Assembly (NCBI GenBank): GCA_022496185.1
Contig: WTXG01000127.1
Span: 1 to 64,000 of the forward strand
Length of the DNA: 64,000 nucleotides
From: Multifurca ochricompacta
Taxonomy: Eukaryota; Basidiomycota; Agaricomycetes; Russulales; Russulaceae
Direction of reading: 5' to 3'
In this document: in pieces, positions 4,097-30,941 of the stretch
Layout: each line of letters opens with the position of its first letter
How positions within the stretch are numbered: position 1 is the first letter of the stretch
Notes under the pieces: generated by a model
The model's database searches: none
What the model was told of the DNA's origin: nothing
Seen by the model: only the letters and a program-made list of their open reading frames with translations
Made by a program: the position numbers and the translations under genes

Positions 4097-4361
4097 TGTT
4101 GAACACAGGACGTGTTCGGTGATGCTTCAGGCATCAGGAGATTAGATTAGCTACTTAGTGGACTAGATTAGATATCGGAGTTTCAGACTTTTTACTATAT
4201 CATTATTACTTTCTTTCTCACATTCTGCAGTAGCTGACTGATGTACCTTAGTAATGATGTACAAGCATGTGATTCCATACTGGCCAATGGCCTTTATCCC
4301 TCTTGATTATTGTCTGGCACTTGTGGACTTATTCCCAGTGCACAGACCATCCCTTGGATTG

Positions 4362-4370
4362 TATATAAGG
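4362..4370 (+). promoter_or_regulatory. TATA box of unit 1
   Basis: TATATAAGG lies 33 bp upstream of the point (4395) where the duplicated exon sequence begins, the usual TATA-to-start distance. The same box occurs at 5379 in unit 2 and 6731 in unit 3. Confidence 0.7.
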
Positions 4371-4418
4371 GTGTCTGTTTTGTCTCTTACACTTCAGAGT
4401 TTTCTTCACCTCTGAAGT

Positions 4419-4473
4419 GTAAGTCCCAGTCTCTCTACTCACTACCTTACCTCTGACTGACTGTCTCTTGTAG
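4419..4473 (+). other. LTR-borne spliceosomal intron, unit 1 (55 bp)
   Basis: The segment begins GTAAGT, contains CTGACTGACTG as a branch-point candidate and ends CTTGTAG. Joining its flanks (4395..4418 and 4474..4488) gives exactly the 39 bp found at 4507..4545. The boundary is unambiguous because neither flank shares a base with the intron ends. Confidence 0.75.
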
Positions 4474-4506
4474 ATAACTTGTCTCTAGGTGTGTAGTGTA
4501 GTAATA

Positions 4507-4545
4507 CAGAGTTTTCTTCACCTCTGAAGTATAACTTGTCTCTAG
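4507..4545 (+). repeat. Intronless copy of the spliced junction, unit 1
   Basis: These 39 bp equal 4395..4418 joined to 4474..4488, with no mismatch. The copy starts 18 bp after the end of the second exon segment. Confidence 0.85.
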
Positions 4546-5378
4546 CTTTACTTGCTAACACTTCACAGTCAGTATGCTGCGCATCATGCCTGTTTTTACA
4601 GGTTATGGGCCCTGAGCATGCTTAACTGATCTGTTACCATTTTCTGATCAGTCCAATTCTACACTTCAAGCTCACCAAGCTTCAAGACTTCTTTCCCAAT
4701 CAGTTCTCCTTGTGAGCTTCGATTTCATCTCTCTTGCCCTTAACTGTCCACAAGGTGGTGCGCTTCATGTGCCCACCTTGATCTGTCTGGCTAGTCCCTC
4801 AGGGGATTCTAGCAAGAGGTGATGAGGGACCCTAAGTGGGTGAAACACCTTGAGCTCCTCATGTGCACTCTAAGTAAATAGTATTCTTAGATGTAGCTGG
4901 GTTTTTGTCCCATCCATAGTCTTAGTAGGCCACTTGCCCAGAAGGCTTGGGGCTATAGGTTCAGTCAATGCTTGGCTTGATCTGTAAGCCAGGTTTAGTG
5001 ACCTGCAGGTAGAGTTTAGGGTCTAGAACAAGGCATGGTAGTCACTCCCATGATGCTTGGGCTCAATACAAGTAGGCTTGATGTCACAGCCAGGTGTTGA
5101 CTGTGTTGTTGACACAGGACGTGTCTGGAGATGCTTCAGGCATCTAAGTTTCGCTTCAGCTGTAGATTAGATTAGATTAGATTTCGGAGTATCGGACTTT
5201 TTATGTTATCTTTATTACACTTTCTCACCTTACTCAGCTGATTAGTGATGTCCTTAGTAATGCGCAGTAAGCACATGATATCTCTTTGGCCAATGGCCTT
5301 TATCCCTCTCTGTTTATTGTCCGGCACTTGTGGACTTATTCCCAGTGCGCACAGACCATTTCCCCTGGCCCCCATGGG

Positions 5379-5387
5379 TATATAAGG
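5379..5387 (+). promoter_or_regulatory. TATA box of unit 2
   Basis: TATATAAGG lies 34 bp upstream of the start of the duplicated exon sequence at 5413. Confidence 0.7.
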
Positions 5388-5435
5388 GTGTCTGTTTTGT
5401 CTCTTACACTTCAGAGTTCCTTCTATCTCTGAAGT

Positions 5436-5488
5436 GTAAGTCCTATCTACTTTACTCTCTACTTCCTTTAGACTAATGCTCTATGTAG
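5436..5488 (+). other. LTR-borne spliceosomal intron, unit 2 (53 bp)
   Basis: It begins GTAAGT, has GACTAATG as a strong branch-point candidate and ends TATGTAG. The joined flanks (5413..5435 and 5489..5504) equal 5525..5563 exactly. Confidence 0.78.
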
Positions 5489-5524
5489 TACTTGTCTTTT
5501 CTAGGTCAGTAGTGTAGTAATATT

Positions 5525-5563
5525 AGAGTTCCTTCTATCTCTGAAGTTACTTGTCTTTTCTAG
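5525..5563 (+). repeat. Intronless copy of the spliced junction, unit 2
   Basis: These 39 bp exactly match the unit 2 exon ends with the intron removed. Compared with units 1 and 3, both the first part and the second part differ, in step with unit 2's own exons. Confidence 0.85.
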
Positions 5564-6239
5564 CCTCACCACTACTAACCACAGTCAGTATAACCAGCAG
5601 CATGATTGTTTGACAGGTTATGGGCCCTGCCGCTCATACTGATCTGTACTTTCCCTTTGTTCATCACAGCCCAACTTGCTTTTTGCACTCCAAGCTCACA
5701 AAAGCTTCAAAGTCTTTCCCACCAGCTTCTTCCTGTGAGCTTTCCTATTTACTGTCTGTGCACCTTAACACCCCACAGGATGATGCAGTTTACTGCTCAT
5801 CCTGAACTGTTTGGCTAGCCCTTTGGGGTTCTTGCAAAAGGTGATGAGGGACCCTAAGCGGGTGAAACACCTTAAGCTCCTTGAGTGCGCACTAGGTATT
5901 AGTAATTTCTTAGTTGTAGCTGGGTTTTTGTCCCATAGATAGTCTTAGTAGGCCTATAGCCAGAAGCTTGTGGCTTTAAGTCCAGCCAATGCTTGGCTCT
6001 ATCTGTAAGCTGGGTTTAGTGACCTGCATGTGGAGTTTAGGGTCTAGAACAAGGCATGGGTAGTCACTCCCATGATGCTTGGGCTCGATACAAGTAGGCT
6101 GCACTACTATAGTCTATACATAGTAGATATAGTCTTTATCTCTGGGCATAAGTATCCATTGCCTTTGTAGGGTAACCACGCCCTACCAGAGACAGACTAG
6201 ACATCTACTTAGTCATGGCCCCAATCATCTAGGGCTTAA

Positions 6240-6320
6240 TCATGGACTCCACCACCAGCATTAGAGGAAGGGCTATACACCCTTTGTCTCTAATGGAACT
6301 TGTGGTTGGCTCCTCCATGA
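6240..6320 (+). other. Leader stem-loop, unit 2
   Basis: Nested inverted repeats are TCATGGA/TCCATGA outermost, then CATTAGAG/CTCTAATG, then AAGGG/CCCTT around the loop CTATACA. The middle helix differs from unit 3 by a T-A to C-G exchange on both sides, which preserves pairing. It may be a packaging or translation signal in the 5' leader. Confidence 0.6.
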
Positions 6321-6730
6321 CATGACTCCCAGTCTTGTTTACACTAGACACTCTGGCTAGTCTACCAGAGCTTATGTCTAGTTACAGGATTGTGCTAGAC
6401 AGCTTTACTATACTTAGAAAGTCACACAACAAAGGCGGGACCTCTTTAGGTTCTGAAGCATAGCACTGTTGAACACAGGAGATGTTCGGTGATGCTTCAG
6501 GCATCAGGTGATTAGATTAGCTACTTTGTAGATTAGATTAGATACCGGAGTTTCGGACTTTTACTATATCATTATTACTTTCTTTCTCACATTCCGCAGT
6601 AGCTGACTGATACATCATGTAACATGTGATTTCTGTAGTGGCCAATGGCCTTTCTCCCTCATGTTTATTGTTTGGACTTTGTCCGGCACTTGTGGACTTA
6701 TTCCCAGTGCACAGACCATCCCTTGGATAG

Positions 6731-6739
6731 TATATAAGG
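6731..6739 (+). promoter_or_regulatory. TATA box of unit 3
   Basis: TATATAAGG lies 34 bp upstream of the start of the duplicated exon sequence at 6765. Confidence 0.7.
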
Positions 6740-6787
6740 GTGTCTGTTTCATCTCTTTCACTTCAGAGTTCTTCTAACATCTGAAGT

Positions 6788-6839
6788 GTAAGTTCCTCTT
6801 TACTATCTACTTTACTATTAGACTAATGTTCGTATATAG
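6788..6839 (+). other. LTR-borne spliceosomal intron, unit 3 (52 bp)
   Basis: It begins GTAAGT, has GACTAATG as a branch-point candidate and ends ATATAG. The joined flanks (6765..6787 and 6840..6855) equal 6876..6914 exactly. Confidence 0.78.
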
Positions 6840-6875
6840 AACTTTCTTTGTCTAGGTCAGTAGTATAGTTAATTA

Positions 6876-6914
6876 AGAGTTCTTCTAACATCTGAAGTAA
6901 CTTTCTTTGTCTAG
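6876..6914 (+). repeat. Intronless copy of the spliced junction, unit 3
   Basis: These 39 bp exactly match the unit 3 exon ends with the intron removed, and they follow the second exon segment after 20 bp. Confidence 0.85.
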
Positions 6915-7580
6915 CCTAACCCGCTAAAACCTTACAGTCAGTATGCTGTGCACATGCCTGTTTTACAGGTTATGGGCCCTGGGCATGCTTAAACTGACGT
7001 CTTATTGATCAGTCCAACCTTACTTCTTCAAGCTCACTGCTTCAAGACTTTAGTCCCAATCAACGTCACAGTGAGCTTCGATTTCTTTGTCTCTTGCCCT
7101 TAACTGTCCACAAGGTGGTGCGCTTTAAGTGCCCACCTTGATCTGTCTGGCTAGTCCCTCAGGGGATTCTTGCAAGAGGTGATGAGGGACCCTAAGCGGG
7201 TGAAACACCTTAAGTTCCTCATGTGTGCTCTAAGTAAATAGTATTCATAGTTATAGCTGGGTTTTCGTCCCATCCATAGACTTAGTAGGCCACTTGCCCA
7301 GAAGGCTTGGGGCTATAGGTTCAGTCAATGCTTGGCTCGATCCGTAAGCCAGGTTTAGCGACCTGCTGGTAGAGTTTAGGGTCTAGAACAAGGCATGGGT
7401 AGTCACTCCCATGATGCTTGGGCTCGATACAAGTAGGCTTGAACTACTATAGTATTTACACAGTAGCTGGAAGGTTTTGTCTCTGGGCAGAAGTACCCGC
7501 TGCCATTGTTGGGGGTCCACCCCAACCAGAGGAAACCTGAAAGTCTACTATAGTCATGGCCCCAATCATCTAGGGCTTAA

Positions 7581-7890: not shown

Positions 7891-10800
7891 ATGTCTTCCA
7901 TCGTCTTCCCCCCCACTTTCAAGTTTGACAAACTTGATGGCTCCAACTGGCAGCAATGGTCTGTGTCATTCACAGCCTTGCTGAGGATAAATGGGATGAA
8001 GAGGCACATCACGCATGATGCCCCTGAGTTCCTTAATCCTCCCAAGCCAGAGGATGGAGAAAAGGATGATGAATATGCCAAGCGCTTCGCACTTTGGTCG
8101 GAGCCCATGTACATAGAATGGAATAGGGTGGAGGAAGTCCTCATGGGAGTTCTGGTGATGGTCACATCACCGGAAACATACTCCCAAATTGCCTCTGACA
8201 GAACGTATCCTTCTGTCAATGCCAAGTATGAGCATTTGGAATCGCTCTATGGCTCAGTGGGTAGCATGGCCACCTACAATTTGTGGTGTTCTGTGTCCTC
8301 CTTCCGCTTGGAGGAGGGCAAGCAATTCAGACCCCAGTTGCAGCGTGTGTTGGATGTGAGGAGTACCCTCAAGGAAAATGGGATGGAGATCTCTGATCTC
8401 CAGTTGAGCTTTATTTTGCTCCAATCCCTACCTCCATCCTATAATGCCATTGCTGGCTCCATCCTGGCGTCAGGTCCTCCTGACCGCCTTTCCCCTCAGG
8501 ACCTTGTACAAAGGTTCCTAAATGAGGAAAGCTGACTAGCTGGCCCTGCAGGAAGTGGTGTTGGGGCTGCCCTTAATAAGGCAGCCCATGTCAACAAAAT
8601 TAAAAACAAAAAACAAGTATCTTTCACACCACAACCTGCAGGTGCATCATTGTCCAATGATGTCACCTGCTTCTATTGCCAGAAGCCAGGCCACAAGGCT
8701 AATGAATGTTGGCAAAGGAAACAGGACAGAGCCAATGCTGATGCAGGCAAAAAGGGCAACAAGAGGAAGGGGCAAGGCCCCAGTACACATAATAACTCCA
8801 CACAAGTAGCTACTGTAGTTAATGGTAGTGGCAGAATACAGGAGGTGCATGAGACACCTCGTATTTCACTTTATATGATGACCGAGCACACACAAGAAGT
8901 CGATGATGGCAGCAATCCTTGGATGATGGACAGTGGAGCCACCACTCACTTTACACCATACTTAGACGATTTCTCTGAGTATTTCCCACACAAGGGACAT
9001 CAGGTGACAATTGGTGATGGTTCCATAGTCCAAGTCGAAGGAACAGGCAAAGTCATACTCAAAACTCGTAATAATTATGAGTTAGAGTTAAATAATGTCT
9101 TTTACATGCCTGGCAGTGAGAGAATACTGTCGACAAGCTGCATCACAGACAAGGGTGGCTCAGTGGAATTTTCTCCATCTGAAGTCAAAATAAAGTACAA
9201 TAATACAATTATAGCGGAAGGTGTCAAGGCTATGGGACTCTATTGGGTCTTTGGGAAAACTATGCAGAATCTAAATACTGCATCCCACAAATCTGCATCA
9301 ACTAGTCTTGACACCTGGCATTTGCGAATGGGTCATATGTCAAAAGAGGCCCTCAAAAGATATGCTCCTAAGGCTGTAAAAGGCCTTAGCATTGATAATA
9401 GCCAAGTGGAAGACAAGCCGTGTTATGGCTGTGAAATGGGAAAATCACACCGTCTTCCATTCCCTCCCTCTCAAAAGAGAGCTTCAGCGCCCTTGGAGGT
9501 CATTCATAGTGACTTAGTTGGTCCATTGCAATGTACCTCAATTCAAGGAAACCTATACTTCGCCACTTTCATAGACGACTTTAGCAGGACAGCTTTAGTT
9601 GTTGCTATGAAAGCAAAAAGTGATTTTACATCAGTCTTCTGTAACATTAAGGCATTCTTGGAAAATAAAACAGACAAGAAAATAAAGACCTTACACACAG
9701 ACCGAGGTGGCGAATTTGTCAATAGGGAGCTGAAGTCAATACTTGAGAAGGCTGGCATAGAGCATAAATTGACAATGCCATATTCCCCACAACAGAACGG
9801 AAGAGCTGAAAGGTTCAACAGAACCATCATGGAAAAGGCTACCAGTATGCTGCATCATGCTGGTCTTTCCCTTGGTTTCTGGGAATGTGCAGTGCGAACA
9901 GCCTGTCACATATATAATAGAACACCTATCTGTTCAAATAAGTGGAGGACACCGCTTGAGCTTCTGGATGGGGACATTCCAGATGTCTCATACTTTAAAA
10001 TCTTTGGCTGCTTAGCCTACTATACAGTCCCAGAGGATAAAAGATGTAAACTGGATCATAAAGCCAGGGAAACAGTCTTTGTCGGGTATGCACCCCACTC
10101 TAAAGGATATCTTCTTTGGGATATGCATACTCGATCCTTCGTATTGTCAAGAGATGTGACATTTGATGAAGGATCCTTCCCATCCAACCTTGCAAAGGAC
10201 AGCAAGGGAAAACAAAAGGAAAAAGTTACACCTTTTGTACTAGAAGCAGAGAGGCCTGTCCAGCCTCAACCAGTAATAGCCACAGTTCCTCAGGCTCCTG
10301 AAAACAAGGACACTGAGGTTGAGGAACAGGAGGAAGTGGAACCTCCTCAAATAAATCCTGAGCCTACCACACCCGATAATGAGATTGACACACACGATCA
10401 AACCATCTATCAGACACCACCATCCCAAATCATGGAGCCATCTGAACTCCCCCAAAGAACCCGTGCCAAAAGACAAACTAAGAAAAATGTCAGCAGGATT
10501 TCCCAACCAGTCTTTACTAGGGAAAGTCCACGCTCTCAGCAACGTGATAGGGCTGTGCAGGAAGATTTAGATCTTGATACTGCCCATCCCAAACGTTCAC
10601 GTCGCATGAATCCTTGATTTTATAATGAGGATAATGCTGAGTTTGTGCAAGGTTCCTCCAGATTGGGACATATGGAATTGCTCAATGCCACAGGAGTCTC
10701 TTATAGAGATCCCCTGACTTATCAGGAGGCAATGCAGTCTGACAATGCCAATGAATGGCTTGAGGCATGTAAATACGAAATTGATGCCTTAGATAAACTT

Positions 10801-11006
10801 GATGTGTGGCGCCTTGAGGATCTTCCAAAAGGAAGAAAGGCTGTCAAATCAAAATGGGTTTTTAAGCTGAAACCAGATGGACAGTTTCGTGCTAGGCTCG
10901 TGGCAAAAGGTTTCACCCAAATAGAAGGGGTGGACTTCAACGAAACATTCTCTCCAGTCGCCAGATTTGAATCACTCAGATTATTACTAGCGCTAGCTAC
11001 GCTAGA
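7891..11006 (+). pseudogene. Ty1/copia Gag-Pol, two in-frame stops, cut off in RT
   Basis: One continuous frame encodes a copia polyprotein. The order is a Gag domain ('FDKLDGSNWQQWSVSF'), a CCHC knuckle (CFYCQKPGHKANECW), a protease (DSGATTHF), a GAG-pre-integrase HH-CC motif (WHLRMGH, CYGCEMGK), an integrase core (HSDLVGPL, HTDRGGEFVN, PQQNGRAERFNR) and the start of RT ('RARLVAKGFTQIEGVDFNET'). Ty1/copia gene order is thus clear, with integrase before RT. The frame contains TGA at 8533..8535, followed by CTAG, and TGA at 10615..10617. RT stops after 'LRLLLALATLD' where the gypsy LTR begins at 11007; the rest of RT, RNase H and the 3' LTR are absent from the window. I chose the ATG at 7891 because the conserved Gag start 'MSSIVFPPTFKFDKL' follows; an upstream in-frame ATG lies at 7849. 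Confidence 0.9.
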
Positions 11007-11591
11007 TGTTACGTCCGGTGTGAGACGTTCCACACGACTTGTGCGACAGCTTGGTTCGTATGTTCAGATAAGAGACCAATAAGGCCTCTTGGAGTGTAAA
11101 TGGATGAGTCAAAGTCAACGGGGCTGTTCCCGAATGACAATGTTAAGTGGAGAGTGCCCAAAGCACTGAGATGATCGAGTCAGAGGTTTCAAAGGGAAGT
11201 CCAGAAGACAAACACCGATGTATTCAATAAGTCGAGTCTGAGGTCTACATGGTAGTTACAGCAGACTTATATACGTAATCGAATGGGCGTCTACTAGATA
11301 AGAGAACGGAGTCATGTGGGCCCAAATATACGAAAGCGAAGGGCGTAAAGCCTAGCTTCTGATAGGGAACTAAGTAAGTGTCCGGTTGTACGATAAGGGA
11401 TAAGAGATAAGAGATAAAGAGTCAAACATGTACAAAGCGAGGCAAACAGAGACAAAGTCAGTCACGGGAGGGAAGTAAAGCATGTGACGGATCCCATGAG
11501 GGAGACGTGATCTGGTAGTGTAAGGTAGGCGGCAGAGAGGGGTCGTCGTGGGGCAGGAAGAAAAAGACCGGAAGAGACGGGGTTCGTAACA
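11007..11591 (-). repeat. 3' LTR of the chromovirus
   Basis: This 585-bp sequence runs TGTTACGTCC...TCGTAACA on the plus strand. It interrupts the copia RT frame on its left side. It carries the same TATA and 11-nt start motif as the other LTR. Confidence 0.92.
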
Positions 11592-11622: not shown

Positions 11623-12822
11623 CTAGAAACGACTCGTACCGTCATCATCCTGCACCAGCTCCAGGTAATCGTCAGCTACATTACGGTCACCCATGCTATA
11701 CGATTCCAACTCTTGCGGACATGTGTGGGTGCGAAGAAATCCATATGGACCTCGCTGGCCACATGCACGGCACAGGTCGTAGACGGGGCAGTCGATTTCG
11801 TTATGCCCAGCGTTATGGCGAAGGCATTTGCCGCACCAGCCCGATGGATTGGTGATGGTTGGGGCCACTCCTACACGTCGGAAGATGCAGTGTCTGCTCC
11901 AGTGGAGGTTGCTTCGGCAGTGTCGACACCATTTGCGGTTGAGGGGACAGTTCCAGCTTATGTGATACTTGCTATCACATCGCCAGCAGGTTTCCCTGCG
12001 CGGGTTCTCATGCAAGCGTGGCATCTCCAGTCGAGTCGGTAGCAGTGTCGGGGCCGCACCCAAGGTTCGAGGGGGGAGGGGTCGTGCATAAGTGTCTGCG
12101 TACCTCTCAGCAATTGTCTGGTATGCATCCCCCGCTTCCAACCTCTTCCTGATGTCCACAATCTCCGACTCCAACTGGAACATCCCATTCGTCAGCCTGG
12201 CCATCACTTTTGCATGCTCCTTGTACTGTTGGTTCAGCGTCCTCCTCAGGGTGATACTCTTCCTCAGCCTCATAACTTCTGCCTTCAGACGTGGTAGTCT
12301 CATGTCGTTCATCACCTCATCGATCGCGAAGGCGCGACAGTCCTCCGCGGCGAGGTGACCCAACTGTTCGTCAGTCAACGTGTGGTGGAGTCGACCTGTA
12401 TACCTTTCCTCCAGATAGACAGGGGCTCCGTACACTGGTCCATCCTTCTTCATACACCCCGCCACATCCATCCCGCCATTGGTGTAATAGATATATTTGG
12501 CGATGGCCGTAGATCCGTCGGCCATTGTGATCTCCAGGGGGAAGTACATCGACGAGTTGGGGTTATTGGGGATGAATGGGAACTCCGGGGCTTCGTCATC
12601 GATCTCTCCGTTGAGCAGGTCATTGGGGTGGGGGTCTTCGCGATGGGTGAAGTCATCATTTGGGTTCGGGGATTGGTTTTTAACTCGGGCCTCTGCGACT
12701 TCGTAGTCAATAGGGGAAGAGGGGCGCGTGGAGGGATGAGCAGAGGGGAAGGCTTCCACGACCACAGTGGTGGCAGTGAAGGCGTCGATGGCGGCGGAGG
12801 CAGCGATGAAAGAGGCAGACAT
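11623..12822 (-). CDS. Intact third ORF of the chromovirus with CCHC zinc knuckles
   Basis: This 399-residue uninterrupted frame begins 70 bp after the pol stop and ends 31 bp before the 3' LTR, filling the space between them. The N-terminal 90 residues are low in complexity and acidic. Residues of about 165-235 are rich in charged heptads ('LPRLKAEVMRLRKSITLRRT', 'LESEIVDIRKRLEAG') and probably form a coiled coil. Two perfect C-x2-C-x4-H-x4-C knuckles follow (CWRCDSKYHISWNC near 278 and CRHCRSNLHWSRHC near 298). Two more irregular Cys/His clusters follow them (CGKCLRHNAGHNEIDC and CRACGQ...HTC). The layout resembles a second nucleocapsid-type, nucleic-acid-binding protein. It is distinct from this element's own Gag knuckle near 16600. 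Being intact beside broken gag and pol is unusual. I do not recognise a named family, and its function is unknown. Confidence 0.75.
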   Translation of the reverse strand: MSASFIAASAAIDAFTATTVVVEAFPSAHPSTRPSSPIDYEVAEARVKNQSPNPNDDFTHREDPHPNDLLNGEIDDEAPEFPFIPNNPNSSMYFPLEITMADGSTAIAKYIYYTNGGMDVAGCMKKDGPVYGAPVYLEERYTGRLHHTLTDEQLGHLAAEDCRAFAIDEVMNDMRLPRLKAEVMRLRKSITLRRTLNQQYKEHAKVMARLTNGMFQLESEIVDIRKRLEAGDAYQTIAERYADTYARPLPPRTLGAAPTLLPTRLEMPRLHENPRRETCWRCDSKYHISWNCPLNRKWCRHCRSNLHWSRHCIFRRVGVAPTITNPSGWCGKCLRHNAGHNEIDCPVYDLCRACGQRGPYGFLRTHTCPQELESYSMGDRNVADDYLELVQDDDGTSRF

Positions 12823-12892: not shown

Positions 12893-15800
12893 TTAACTGT
12901 TCTTGGGTGCTTGGGGATGTCGTAAATGGAACTCCGCAATCAGGTCCGGGGCCGAGATATCCCCGGCTGGTTCCCACGAGTTGTCAGAGTCTGGGAAACC
13001 TTTCCACTTGATCAGGTAGTACAACTTGCGCCCTCGGCCTTGTCGCTTGGAGTCTAGAACGCGCTCCACTTCCCATTCTTCTTCGCCATCGATAAGGTCA
13101 GGTGGGGGTCTCGGGAAGTTCTCTCTGTGAATGGAGGTTTCTTTGTAAGGGGTCAGAAGCTTGGCATGGAAGACTGGATGGATCTTCCATTTCGGCGGCA
13201 ACTGCAATTCGTAAGAGACGTCTGACAGCTTCCTTGTGATTTGGAAGGGTCCGTGGCGTCGGGGCGCTAATTTGGCCGAGGGGTGTGACGTGTGAATATT
13301 TCTACCCTCGAGCCACACCCAGTCATTGGTTCGATAAGGTGTGAATGTGCTTGGCTGTGCAGCCAGAAGCTGTTGCGCCTTTACCAGATTCTCATTGGCT
13401 GATTGCCGCAGCTCTTCCCATTGGCCGATTCGTTCAGTTACTGACGGGACATTGATGGGCTTTTCTGTCCACGTGGTGCGTGGAGTCCAGCCCATGATAA
13501 GGGAGAAAGGGGTGGATTTTGTCGTCCCATTGGGCCATGAATTGTGAGCGAATTCTGCGGTCGACAGCCATTCCGCCCAATCGTCCTGCCTGCCGTTGCA
13601 CCAAAACCGGAGATACTGTTCCAACCATTGGTTCGTCCGCTCAGACTGTCCGTCTGTCTGTGGATGGTATGCCGTCGAGATATTCTGCGTGATGTCCAGC
13701 GTCTTGCATAAGGCTCTCGCAATGCCGATGTAAAACGGGTATCCCGGTCAGAGATGATCTTTTTAGGGAGTCCGTAATGACGGTATACGTGGTTCAGGTA
13801 TAGTTTCGCCACTCCTTCAGCTGTGATAGTTTCGTTGCAGGGAATGAAGAGGGCCGCTTTGGAACAATCATGGTCTGTGATAGTGAGGATAGTGTCGAAG
13901 CCTTGTGATTTGGGCAGCTTGACAATGAAGTCCATGGCGATGGTCTGGAAAGGAGTCGATGTACTGGGGGTAATGGGAAGCATTGGTGGGACTTTTGGGT
14001 GCGTGTTCACTTTGTTTGCTTGGCATGATGCGCATCCTCGTACGTAGCTCTCAATGTCTTTTTTCATATTGGGCCACCAATAGTCTCTCTTGGCCAGGGC
14101 ATAAGTGTTGGCAATGCCTGGATGGCCAGCGGAGGGAAGGTCGTGATGAAAATGGATCACCCCCCTCTTAATGTTGTCACCACCGGTGACAACGAGTCGA
14201 TCTCCATCTTTCCACCAAAGACCGCTGATTTCTTTAAATTGTGAGCGTCAGCCCATGAACGACACAGGTCTTGGTTCATATTTTGGGAACTTGTGCCCAA
14301 AGGTCCATATCATGGAGACTGACAACGGCCGTCTTGGCAAATACCTCTTCTGGAGGACAGTGATGTCGTTATTGTCATCTTCCCTGTATGCATGTCTGGT
14401 CTGCGTGACAATGCATCTGCTCTAGCATTCTGACTCCCAGCAATGTGTTTCAGCGTGAAGTTATATTCTTCTAGTTCCAAGACTTCTCGTGCTACACGCC
14501 GGCTGATCTTGTGGGGTTCCTTCCAGTATAAGAGGTTGGAATGATCAGTGTGGATGATGGTCTTATGAGGGGTGCCTGCCAAATAGGGTCGCCAGTATCG
14601 CAATGCCTTAACTATGGCTAAAAGCTCCCTATCCCAGATGTCGTAGTTCCTTTCAGCAGGGGAGAAGGTTCGGAATAGTACGCCACTGGGTGAAGCACTT
14701 GTGCGGCATCTCTCTGATATAATACTGCCCCGTTCGCAAAGTGTGAGGCGTCCACCTCTACTTCGAAGGGGTGGTTCAGATCTGGTTGGATAAGGACTGG
14801 TTCTGAGCCGACGAGGTCCCTAATCTGTTCGAACGCCTGCTGCTGTGCGGTATCCCAATGCCAGATACATCCTTTTTCAGTAGGTCGTTCAGTGGTCACG
14901 CTATGCCTGAAAACCCCTTGACGAATCGTCGGTAAAAATTGCAGAATCCGATAAACGATCGGACATCCTTGACGCAGGTTGGCACGGGCCACTCCCGGAT
15001 TCCCTGTACTTTAAGGGGTCCATGCGCACTTGTCCTCCTTCCAAGATGACCCCTAGATACTCAACACTCCGTTGTTCGAAGGAGCATTTGGCGGGTTTGA
15101 GATAGAGGTCATGTTCATGCAGTATGTCCAGTACCTGATGTACACGGCGTCGATGGTGGTCCAAATCATCTGCAGTGGCTACTAGGATGTCGTCCATATA
15201 GACCACTACTTCTCCGTGAGAATGAGGTCGCGGAAGATGTGATTCATCATAGACTGGAACGTTGCCAGCGAGTTCGTGAGACCAAAGAACATGACATTGG
15301 GCTCAAACAACCCTTGATTTGTTTTGAACGCTGCTTTGCACTGGTCACCTTCCTTGATCCTGACGTTGTTATAACCCCATTGCACGTCCATCTTTGAGAA
15401 GAGGGACTTATCCCTCATGGTGTCAATAAGTTCGGAGATGAGCAGTAGGGGGTAGGCGTTTTTCACGGTGTATGTGTTGATCCGCTGATAATCCTGGACT
15501 GGTCGTAGCTTGCCATCCTTCTTTTTGATGAAGAAGAAGGGTGAAGCGTACTGCGACTTGGATGGGCGAATATATCCTTTTGCCAAATGTTCTTCCAGGA
15601 ACTCCGTCAATGCCACCTGCTCAGACTGGGACAGCGGATAGATTTTGCAATCTATTGCTGTTGGCGTGTCAGGGAGTAAGTCTATGGCATGGTCCCATGG
15701 TCTGGGAGGTGGGAAACGCTGGGATTCCTCCTCGGAAAACACCTTCCAATGCCGATGGTAGACACTCGGCACTATATCGCTGTATGTCTTTTCCACCTGC

Positions 15801-16240
15801 CCTTGTATTGCCTTTTGGGCTAGTTCCGATGCTTTAGTGGCGTAACAGCGTCCTGGGTCTTCCATTCCCGTACTTGTGGCTCTGATTATGGGATGTCTGA
15901 CTGCATAGTCATATCCTATCGACGTGATGATAGTGGGATATGATTCTTTATCCATTGTCGCGTCAGCCCAGTTGATCTTGGGCTCAAACGCAGCAAGCCA
16001 CGGATATCCTAGGATAAGATCTTCGTCTCCCAGGTCCGTAATCAGGAAACGAATGTTCTTCATGGTCTCTCCAACCTGGACCTTTAGATCTGTGTAATGA
16101 GTGATTTTTCCAGCGCGGTTGGCCGTTCCGTCAATGTTCCAAATGTTCTTTTCCTGGGGAAGTGCCAGCCGTCCCAGGCCCATTGTTTTGATTAGTCGTG
16201 GGTGAATAAATTGTCTGTGGCTCCGGGGTCCACTAAAATA
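12893..16240 (-). pseudogene. Chromovirus Pol: protease, RT, RNase H, integrase, chromodomain; several frameshifts
   Basis: Protease is seen as DPGATDN near 16220 and 'DEDLILGYPWLAAFEPKINW'. A one-base loss near 16210 shifts its frame. RT follows ('RPVQDYQRINTYTVKNAYPL', 'FFGLTNSLATFQSMMNHIFR') and is shifted just before the catalytic VYMDD at 15200. RNase H fragments are 'HPFEVEVDASHFANGAVLYQ' and 'TDHSNLLYWKEPHKISRRVA'. Integrase has HH-CC (HHDLPSAGH, CASC), MDFIVKLP and SDRDTRF, then a shift near 13690, then 'AEFAHNSWPNGTTKSTPFSL'. The C-terminus is a chromodomain ('EWEVERVLDSKRQGRG', 'YYLIKWKGFPDSDNSWEP'), the module that targets chromoviruses to marked chromatin. Each break is a small indel, so this is a decayed pol, not a programmed shift. 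Confidence 0.92.
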
Positions 16241-28796: not shown

Positions 28797-30941
28797 TTAA
28801 GAAAATACTCTTTTACCTTTTTCACACGCTGATACCTCCAACTTACCATTGGAATCGATTAGAAATCTTATCTCGATTGACGTCCGCCATCTGTTTCCTT
28901 CCTTCCGTCCTTCCTTGGCCACTAAGCTTAATGCTCCCAAATAACTTTCCTTCTTAATCACCTTTTCTTTTACTTCAATTTCTTCTTCCTCTTCCTCCTC
29001 ATCTTCATCTTGTGCGTCGTCCTCGTCCTCCTTTGGCAGCTTCACTTTCTCTATCTTGATGCCTTCCTTAACCTCCCACACCTCAAGCCCAACATGCCTT
29101 TCCCCCACTTCAGCACCCTCACCCAAGTCTACTTCTAAAATGTACGTGCGCCGTGCGGGGACAGGAGTCTCCGTTTGAATTCCCCCAATCCACTGCCCAT
29201 GAAGTCCCTCTGTACCTTCCCTAGTAGCCGCTTCTGGGAACAAGACACCAATAGTGCGCGCGGTGGCCTTGACATCAACTAGCTCGCTTCCACGTCCAAA
29301 CCCTTGTCGCACCTGCTCGTCCGCTCCGCTGATCTCAGCTAGTATCCGTGCCTGCAGCGCAGCACCGCGTGCAAGTATCGTCGTTGGGTCACCGACGCCG
29401 CCACCGGAGACAGTGCCCGTTAAGAACGGCGTGAACGCGTCTTCGCGAAGGTGCACCGCGAGCGCGGCGTCTAGCCCAGGCAGGCACGCACTGCCACCGG
29501 TATATATCACTTCGTCGACATGAATCCAATCGAGTCCTGCGCGCTGTAGTAGTTCGCCTGCTCGCGCAGCCACGCCACTGTAAATCGGCGCCGCCTCCAT
29601 GTCAAATCGCAGACGGTTGATGGTCCCTGTATAGTCTAGCCCGTCCTTGAGAGACTCGACTGCGCACGTCGCTGCGCTGCCCCCAACACCACCCACGGAC
29701 GCCGCAATCGTGCGTTTGGTATGGAGCAATGCAAGCCGCAGACGCGCCTCGGCCCGCAAGTCAAGTACTTCGGTGGCCGGCGCGACCTTGAGCGGCACGC
29801 TCGTCTTTTTCGTAAAGTCCTTCGCGAAGAACTTGAGCAAGCGATCGTCGATCGTGTCACCGCCGAGTTCCGTGTGGTGAGAGGGCGGGGTGAGGTGGTG
29901 GAACAAGCCCTGGCGTACAGCCAGGAGGGACAATGCGAGTGACGACGCGCCAAGGTCAACCACCAACTGCGTGCGATCCGGACCGATTGCTGAGTTTCCT
30001 GTTACATTCGCAGTATTGGAAGCCGCACAGAACGCCGCAGCGCCAGGATCTTCGAGAAGCTGCAGAACGCGAATTCCGGCGGCCTCAGCGGCCTCCTGTA
30101 GCGCGTCGAGCTGCGCAGGCACAAACCAGCCTGGAACCGTGAGCACAGCGCCGTCAACCTTTTTGCCGAGGAAAGCTTCGGCAGATTGCAGGAGCGAGCG
30201 CAGGAAGAGGGTAGTCACGTCTGCGGGTGTAAGCACGCGTTCGGCTGGGATGGGTTCAGAGCGCGGCGTGGCGACTTGTGAAGCCGCAGGTGTGTTCGTT
30301 TTTGTCGTCAGCGCTGAAGCGGCCGGCGAGAGTGGGGACGGCGCGGGTTGTAATACTTTCACCCTGTATGCAGGGGTGTCAGGCGAATCAGGGTGTTGGA
30401 TGACGGGCGCAGAGGATGTCGGACGATCTTTTGGGAGCTCAGAGAACCTGCATGGAAGGAAAGACGTGTGATAATTCAGGCGCCTATTTAAGTAAAAGCA
30501 ATGAGGCGCACCTCTTGCCCAGTAAGTTACGAAAGCCGATGATGGTATTCGCGCTATTTTTAATGAGTTGTTGTTTTGCTTCGTTTCCGATGTACTTTGT
30601 GCATCAAGGGAAAGGGAATAAAAACTGATGAGTGCGTCGAAGTCTTCGAGGTGAAGGGGGAAAAAAAGATGCTCACTGTCTCTTCGCCATGAAAAGAGAT
30701 CGCACAAGCGATCTGACGTTCACCGTCTTCATTCGCGATACATTCTGCCAGTCCCTCCTATAAACCCAACATTTTCAGCTATAATCACGCGAGAAAAAAA
30801 TACAAAAAAAAGACATACTTTTGTGAGGACAGCGATTGAAGCAAAAGAATTGCCAAAGTTGATTCCGATGACGGTCTGTGAAGAGGTTAATTCTATAGGA
30901 GCTTGGGCACTGCCGTTTGGGATTTGGCCGTTAAGAGACAT
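28797..30941 (-). CDS. SSZ1: Ssz1, Hsp70-like subunit of the ribosome-associated complex
   Basis: Ssz1 pairs with the J-protein Zuo1 in the ribosome-associated complex and helps the ribosome-bound Hsp70 fold nascent chains. The first exon encodes 'SSQTVIGINFGNSFASIAVL', the degenerate phosphate-binding loop typical of Ssz1. After short introns come 'CIANEDGERQIACAISFHGE', 'YIGNEAKQQLIKNSANTIIG' and 'FSELPKD'. The actin-fold ATPase domain continues with 'VDGAVLTVPGWFVPAQLDAL', 'QLVVDLGASSLALSLLAVRQ' and 'VDEVIYTGGSACLPGLDAAL'. The C-terminal domain is short, as in Ssz1, and contains an acidic run (EDEDDAQDEDEEEEEEEIEV). A proline/alanine/serine-rich insert lies between 'FSELPKD' and the ATPase core. 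Length is about 570 residues, close to the 538 of yeast. It starts 142 bp from the divergent UBP14 start. Confidence 0.9.

Follow-up and report, generated by a model that had tools for sequence, protein, structure and literature searches.

Layout of the long terminal repeat units

We analysed a 64,000-bp stretch of the genome of the Russulales mushroom Multifurca ochricompacta (contig WTXG01000127.1, positions 1 to 64,000; hereafter the window), which carries on its plus strand three units of a copia-type retrotransposon family with long terminal repeats (LTRs) of ~500 bp and a 5' leader. Unit coordinates were determined by direct reading of the sequence and with a parser. Each LTR has the order U3-E1-I1-E2-g-E1'E2'-X, where U3 is the unique 3' region, E1 and E2 are predicted exons, I1 is a predicted intron, g is a short segment, E1'E2' is a copy of the joined exons and X is the remainder of the repeat and unique 5' regions (R/U5) to the LTR end; a presumed primer-binding site follows.

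The LTR of unit 1 (TGTTGAACACAGG...TTTTTACA, 4097..4600) was delimited by its TG..CA ends, by GGTTATGGGCCC directly after it and by the target-site duplications of other copies. It holds a TATATAAG box (4362..4369), an inverted repeat or hairpin (CTTACACTTCAGAG-loop-CTCTGAAGTGTAAG, 4386..4423) that spans the predicted RNA start and the I1 donor, E1 (4396..4418), predicted I1 (4419..4473, 55 bp, GTAAGT..CTGAC..TAG with GT..AG ends), E2 (4474..4488) and a predicted second intron, I2 (4489..4545, GTGTGT..TAG). I2 is made of g (4489-4507) and the copy E1'E2' (4508..4545, the predicted landing site and functional start of R), a segment that other LTRs are found without. X (4546..4600) and the presumed primer-binding site GGTTATGGGCCC (4601..4612) complete the unit. 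In unit 2 (LTR 5107..5615) we located E1 at 5413..5435, predicted I1 at 5436..5488 (53 bp), E2 at 5489..5504 and predicted I2 at 5505..5563, holding the copy at 5525-5563. Unit 3 (6467..6967) is the 5' LTR of a copia element, with E1 at 6765..6787, predicted I1 at 6788..6839 (52 bp), E2 at 6840..6855, predicted I2 at 6856..6914 (copy at 6876-6914) and the presumed primer-binding site of the element at 6968..6979.

A first-pass annotation of the window had reported that the joined flanks of GT..AG segments of 55, 53 and 52 bp equal a nearby 39-bp copy without mismatch in all three units. We confirmed the identity and the segment lengths; the copy length held for units 2 and 3, and the copy of unit 1 begins one base later, at 4508, since position 4507 is a C shared by the bases preceding exon and copy. 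The three LTR units also stood, with the correction that the true LTRs span only ~500 bp, what remains of each unit being 5' leader inside the element. I1 had been recognised; it had been overlooked that the copy-bearing segment (g+E1'E2') itself has GT-AG ends. Between 4097 and 7797 the three LTR-plus-leader pieces follow one another head to tail; two lack a coding region, and the second piece stops in its leader exactly at the start of the third LTR.

Sampling of the family in the genome

We searched the genome (53.8 Mb in 605 contigs) with a pattern covering the hairpin and the I1 donor, yielding 1520 places (773+747), compared with 0 for the reversed control. Parsing of the fetched loci, referred to below by their L numbers, yielded 105 hits, 96 with a copy and 9 without; the latter were misreadings of the palindrome from the opposite strand (6 hits) and truncated or deleted LTRs (L039, L060 and L083). 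The 96 LTRs are a non-random sample, composed of best DNA matches, first-listed pattern places, neighbours within loci and hand-picked places. The parser passed over, and kept no count of, hits that had no TATA 15-45 bp upstream or less than 200 bases of downstream sequence; it also demanded an intact E1 followed by GTAAG, so that mutated E1 sequences are under-represented. Its exact class (n=83) required AG|GT after E2, GTAAG at the start of I1 and AG at the ends of I1 and E2'. Pattern searches need exact matches, and the counts of intronless, tandem, I2-loss and alternative-acceptor products given below are thus lower bounds; LTR counts are not counts of events.

The copy tracks the exons of its own LTR

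E1 was identical to its own copy in 93 of the 96 parsed LTRs, and 83 of the 96 had an E1E2 identical to their own copy with the run of identity ending exactly at AG|GT. By reading of the parser printout, E1E2 is also identical to the own copy in L002, L049 and L088. The 83 exact LTRs hold 48 distinct E1E2 sequences, each matched in its own copy, and differ from one another at E1E2 by 14.5% on average; the E1E2 of one LTR equalled the copy of another in only 142 of 6806 ordered pairs (2.1%). Over 94 LTRs (two tandems excluded), E1 and its own copy differed at 3 positions in total. For two common loop types, genome-wide exon/copy pairs numbered 184 for A/A, 293 for B/B and 0 for both A/B and B/A. 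The proposal of the first-pass annotation that the copy follows its own unit thus holds in the parsed sample and, genome-wide, for the two loop types, with 0 crossed pairs among 477.

Limits of the copy and splice signals

The distance from the first base of TATATAAG to the start of E1 is 34 bp in 95/96 LTRs and 33 bp in one; 34 bp is the usual spacing for an RNA start. The left edge of the copy lies at AGAG, and beyond it the two sequences share 0 bases in 68/83 exact LTRs and 1 base in 15/83, the base preceding E1 being always C and that preceding the copy T (62), C (15), G (4) or A (2). At the other edge, AG|GT follows E2 in 95/96 LTRs (83 by the parser, which required it, and 12 of the 13 others by reading of the printout), the exception being L049 (GC); in L002 identity runs two bases beyond AG|GT since X also starts with GT.

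Within the exact class, I1 begins with GTAAGT and ends with TAG in 83/83 (GTAAG and the final AG being required by the parser) and contains a branch-point-like [CT]T[AG]A[CT] in 82/83. The segment g starts with GTCAGT (51), GTGTGT (30), GTTAGT (1) or GTATGT (1), and E2' ends with TAG in 83/83 (AG required). Because the copy ends with TAG exactly where E2 meets GT, we predict that g+E1'E2' is a second intron, I2, for which only a weaker, TAAC/TACT-like motif was seen at the start of E2'. A single intron running from the E1 donor to the copy was rejected, as none of the 83 exact LTRs has an AG where E1' meets E2', so that the LTR would not be regenerated. Close relatives differ in the last 1-3 bases of g before the copy (T, C, G or A; in unit 1, the end of 4489-4507), and this variation could be the scar of untemplated bases at a strand-transfer junction.

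Intronless and other by-product LTRs

We searched the genome for U3 joined straight to E1E2 and found 46 places (27+19), to be set against the 1520 hairpin-donor places obtained with a pattern of similar length. All 46 run E1-E2-X with both introns gone and no second E1 within 260 bp, and TATA is kept in 44. In 32/46 the E2 is identical to one present among the sampled intact LTRs; variant E2 sequences make up the remaining 14, L048 among them with TGG at the end instead of TAG. Target-site duplications flank intronless pairs (TAAAG; ATAAC; TCGCT/TTGCT) and one intronless solo LTR (GCCTT on both sides), so these LTRs are real insertions. The nearest neighbour was an intact LTR for 27 of the 46, even though intact LTRs were sampled thinly (94 of the order of 1500) compared with intronless ones (46/46); among the remaining 19, 8 (L046/47, L062/63, L066/67 and L098/99) point to a partner LTR that is probably part of the same element. 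This scatter among intact lineages is what recurrent losses that spread little would give, two small clusters (L052/L096/L066/L067 and L068/L069) being possible exceptions, and a strongly expanding intronless lineage was rejected on the same 27/46.

Other products were rarer. I2 was lost and I1 kept in 5 of 6 pattern matches (L137, L140, L141 and L138/L139, the last two sharing the same flank and looking like one duplicated locus), the sixth, L039, being a deletion. The tandem E1I1E2g-E1I1E2g-E1'E2', as expected from unspliced complementary DNA (cDNA), occurred at 2 places. A genome pattern search for the product of splicing I1 alone returned 0 true matches, its lone match again being the deletion L039. 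E2' was joined to TCAGTAT in 3 of 5 pattern matches (L134 at C390:72414, L135/L136 at C594:56248 and C597:56259, probably 2 events), as if a second acceptor inside X (CTAAC..ACAG|TCAG) had been used; the other two matches, L132/L133, look like a slip. Routine use of this acceptor was rejected given these 3/5 matches and probable 2 events. X normally retains the branch-point-like stretch CTAAC..ACAG. A pattern scan of IMG/VR returned 0 matches.

A proposed cycle that would rebuild the introns

We consider it highly probable, from the sequence comparisons above, that this copia-type LTR carries two small spliceosomal introns at its transcribed start and that the copy is a landing site through which both are rebuilt in each cycle. 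Transcription would start at E1 (at the AGAG lying 34 bp downstream of the first base of TATATAAG), and removal of I1 and of I2 (g+E1'E2') would give a packaged RNA beginning E1-E2-X, identical to E1'E2'X in the DNA. Reverse transcription primed at the primer site would copy X, E2 and E1 up to the cap, and the resulting strong-stop cDNA would anneal to E1'E2'X of the 3' LTR, its sole uninterrupted match, E1 being broken by the intron. Extension would then copy g, E2, I1, E1 and U3 to give U3-E1-I1-E2-g-(E1E2X), which is the original LTR and hence a fixed point. E1'E2' would be overwritten by the current E1E2 at every cycle, which would explain the tracking, and E2' would double as the 3' splice site of I2. 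The prediction is therefore that the RNA begins at one place (E1) and the cDNA lands at another (E1').

The strong-stop cDNA is a continuous copy that reaches from the primer site up to the 5' end of the RNA, so that the RNA from which E1'E2'X was derived should have read E1-E2-X, and both I1 and g+E1'E2' would have been absent from it. Unspliced RNA would duplicate E1-I1-E2-g, and splicing of I2 alone, or landing on E1, would lose introns; the 46/46 intronless LTRs and the 5 places without I2 alone are indirect evidence that I1 and I2 are removed from the RNA. The suggestion of the first-pass annotation that the copy derives from spliced RNA and is renewed in each lineage is supported by the tracking and by LTRs of the kind expected from spliced cDNA. 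Its idea of a landing site for first-strand transfer is likewise supported and was incomplete, the arrangement being stable only if g and the copy are spliced as well: a second intron is needed because splicing I1 alone would add one copy per cycle.

A more speculative element concerns the 3' LTR, where a hairpin over the RNA start would mask the I1 donor, and would not do so at the RNA 5' end, one arm being untranscribed there. RNA of the 3' LTR would include a stretch missing from the RNA 5' end, CTTACACTTC, which immediately precedes the predicted start site and whose complement, GAAGTGTAAG, lies at the donor of I1. Across the 96 LTRs, pairing is 100% at the six positions beside AGAG and 71-99% at the next four, which the search pattern partly required. 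Folding predictions for 75/83 LTRs left the I1 donor less paired at the start of the RNA than in the context of the 3' LTR, giving modest support to the hypothesis that the hairpin may discriminate between the two LTRs. The full picture of a self-renewing cassette, in which splicing is obligatory for expression, the copy inside I2 serves as transfer target, the cap-site hairpin limits splicing to the 5' copy and R is uncoupled from the transcription start, seems to us about evenly balanced between right and wrong.

Alternative explanations and points against the cycle

If I1 were the only intron and the copy served spliced cDNA simply as a landing pad, the tracking of E1E2 would be accounted for. 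The strong-stop product would then be E1E2-g-E1'E2'-X, however, and landing on E1' would add one copy per cycle, an array that the pattern search did not find; g+E1'E2' is moreover gone both together with I1 (46/46) and without loss of I1 (5 places), and we judge this explanation very improbable. Premature internal transfer inside X would preserve all upstream parts without needing a copy; the copy would then be an ancient remnant, and gene conversion would keep E1E2 and E1'E2' the same. Such conversion would have to pass over I1 without copying it while also copying changes in the length of E2, and each of the 48 distinct E1E2 combinations of the exact class is matched in its own copies; the copy limits also fall at the predicted RNA start and splice acceptor, and the tandem and intron-loss products follow from transfer at the RNA end. 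We regard this route as quite improbable. A DNA duplication with internal deletion, fixed in a founder without any splicing, would make the tracking a matter of shared descent, and the common layout of the parsed copies does make a single origin likely. Descent alone cannot keep two segments identical while lineages diverge by a mean of 14.5% and leave 0 crossed among 477 pairs for two loop types, and the loss of the two GT-AG segments from 46 LTRs points to spliced RNA, which makes this the least credible of the alternatives, at the limit of what we would entertain. One variant is compatible with the two-intron cycle: the intronless LTRs may stem from a spliced 3' LTR instead of cDNA landing on E1. 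Both routes yield U3-E1-E2-X, the same outcome in sequence, and nothing speaks directly against the variant, which we hold to be possible while leaning slightly the other way.

Several observations weigh against the two-intron cycle. The cap site, splicing and the polyadenylation (poly(A)) site were all deduced from DNA. Thirteen of the 96 LTRs fall outside the exact class, namely 2 tandems, L002 (where GT also opens X), L049 (I2 donor altered to GC), L088 (I1 acceptor altered) and 8 LTRs in which exons and copy differ at one or two bases. L085 (C12:11330) and L113 (C12:5320) appear to be the paired LTRs of a single element and have an E2/E2' mismatch in common; a mismatch can thus enter at transfer. 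Among intronless LTRs, L052, L096 and L066/L067 are 97-99.6% alike, and L068/L069 are 98.1% alike on opposite strands and hence separate insertions; these may be small lines replicating without introns, and since intronless LTRs can perhaps replicate a little, the introns are not proven essential. The fold effects are small and do not explain how the 3' LTR would escape I1 and I2 splicing: the mean unpaired probability of the I1 donor differs modestly (0.32 at the 5' end vs 0.18 in the 3' LTR), that of the I2 donor hardly at all (0.22 vs 0.24), and E1' is barely freer than E1 in the 3' LTR (0.42 vs 0.39, in 58/83). Lastly, a genome search with a partly assumed pattern for an initiator transfer RNA (tRNA) matching the presumed primer site returned 0 places.

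The mismatch shared by L085 and L113 arose at or before the strand transfer of that insertion, and is useful for dating the renewal step.

Coding region and neighbouring frames

Unit 3 heads a truncated, stop-interrupted gag-pol region (7891..11082, plus strand) with the order gag, zinc knuckle, Pol beta-barrel, integrase and start of reverse transcriptase. Pfam profiles run on the frame at 8650-10614 detected the zinc knuckle, the Pol beta-barrel, gag-pre-integrase and integrase, with rve at residues 279-380, which places the integrase upstream of the reverse transcriptase; gag and the reverse transcriptase were assigned by reading of the frames, the latter as a truncated reverse transcriptase-like start at 10618-11082, after a stop codon. 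Relatives of the polyprotein found by searching were mostly unnamed. Other copies of the family have TG..CA ends and 5-bp target-site duplications (CCCCC for L015/L017 and GTAGC for L020/L021), although the end-finding script missed the ends at several loci (e.g. L011, L012, L064, L066 and L067). The purine tract TGGAGGGA precedes 3' LTRs elsewhere in the genome, and GGTTATGGGCCC lies directly after the LTR, where a primer-binding site would sit; it may be a half-tRNA site of the initiator methionine type.

By our own reading, the minus strand of the window carries a 399-amino-acid frame with CCHC-like zinc knuckles that resembles the gag of another retroelement (11623-12822) and a frame resembling a gypsy-type protease and reverse transcriptase (15206-16183). 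An Hsp70-like frame lies at 28797-30704, also on the minus strand; over 86% of its length it shares 99% identity with a protein of Multifurca ochricompacta (Russulales, Russulaceae), and Lactarius species come among the next named matches.

Significance and comparison with known systems

Since reverse transcription is expected to erase introns, any retroelement with a spliced RNA intermediate ought to lose its own. The element described here seems to retain two of them across about 1500 LTR copies by shifting the landing of first-strand transfer, which would bend the textbook rule that R begins at the RNA start and would leave a fossil record of splicing readable from DNA alone. It also makes testable whether introns pay for a transposon in a host group favouring intron-containing transcripts. 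By analogy with such hosts, the benefit of keeping the introns is likely expression, for which introns are reported to be required or helpful in several basidiomycetes: they are reported as necessary for expression in Clitopilus passeckerianus, with reference to work on Schizophyllum commune (PMC4935854), and intron removal lowers the messenger RNA of most genes tested in Cryptococcus (PMC3744415). This dependence concerns host genes and transgenes, not transposons (PMC4935854, PMC3744415).

The first-pass annotation knew of no described LTR element with this layout, and among the matches listed in the open-licence literature we likewise found no LTR retrotransposon with an intron inside its LTR kept in this way; PMC6875170, PMC5542766 and PMC4256276 proved to be unrelated. 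Penelope-like elements are retroelements that keep introns despite reverse transcription; they belong to a different class with no strong-stop transfer between LTRs, and have another route for keeping introns. As for foamy viruses, we know of no intron lying wholly inside their LTR and of none regenerated by strand transfer. A foamy virus study describes a splice donor within the LTR and an RNA structure that differs between the LTRs, with U1 binding blocked in the 3' LTR (PMC3694450), which gives the masking hypothesis a precedent. In the element described here a small difference of this kind is predicted for the I1 donor and not for the I2 donor. The purpose described for foamy viruses is the choice of poly(A) site (PMC3694450).

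The element is still a copia-type LTR retrotransposon, although its proposed intron-renewal route has, as far as we found, no precedent. It has in common with Ty1/copia elements (Pseudoviridae) the TG..CA LTRs, the 5-bp duplications, a site where a primer-binding site would lie and the TGGAGGGA purine tract, as well as the zinc knuckle, the Pol beta-barrel and an integrase followed by the start of reverse transcriptase (the last by reading of the frame). Unlike them, it has two predicted introns inside the LTR together with a built-in copy of its spliced RNA start, and its predicted RNA start lies ~110 bp upstream of the segment serving as R.

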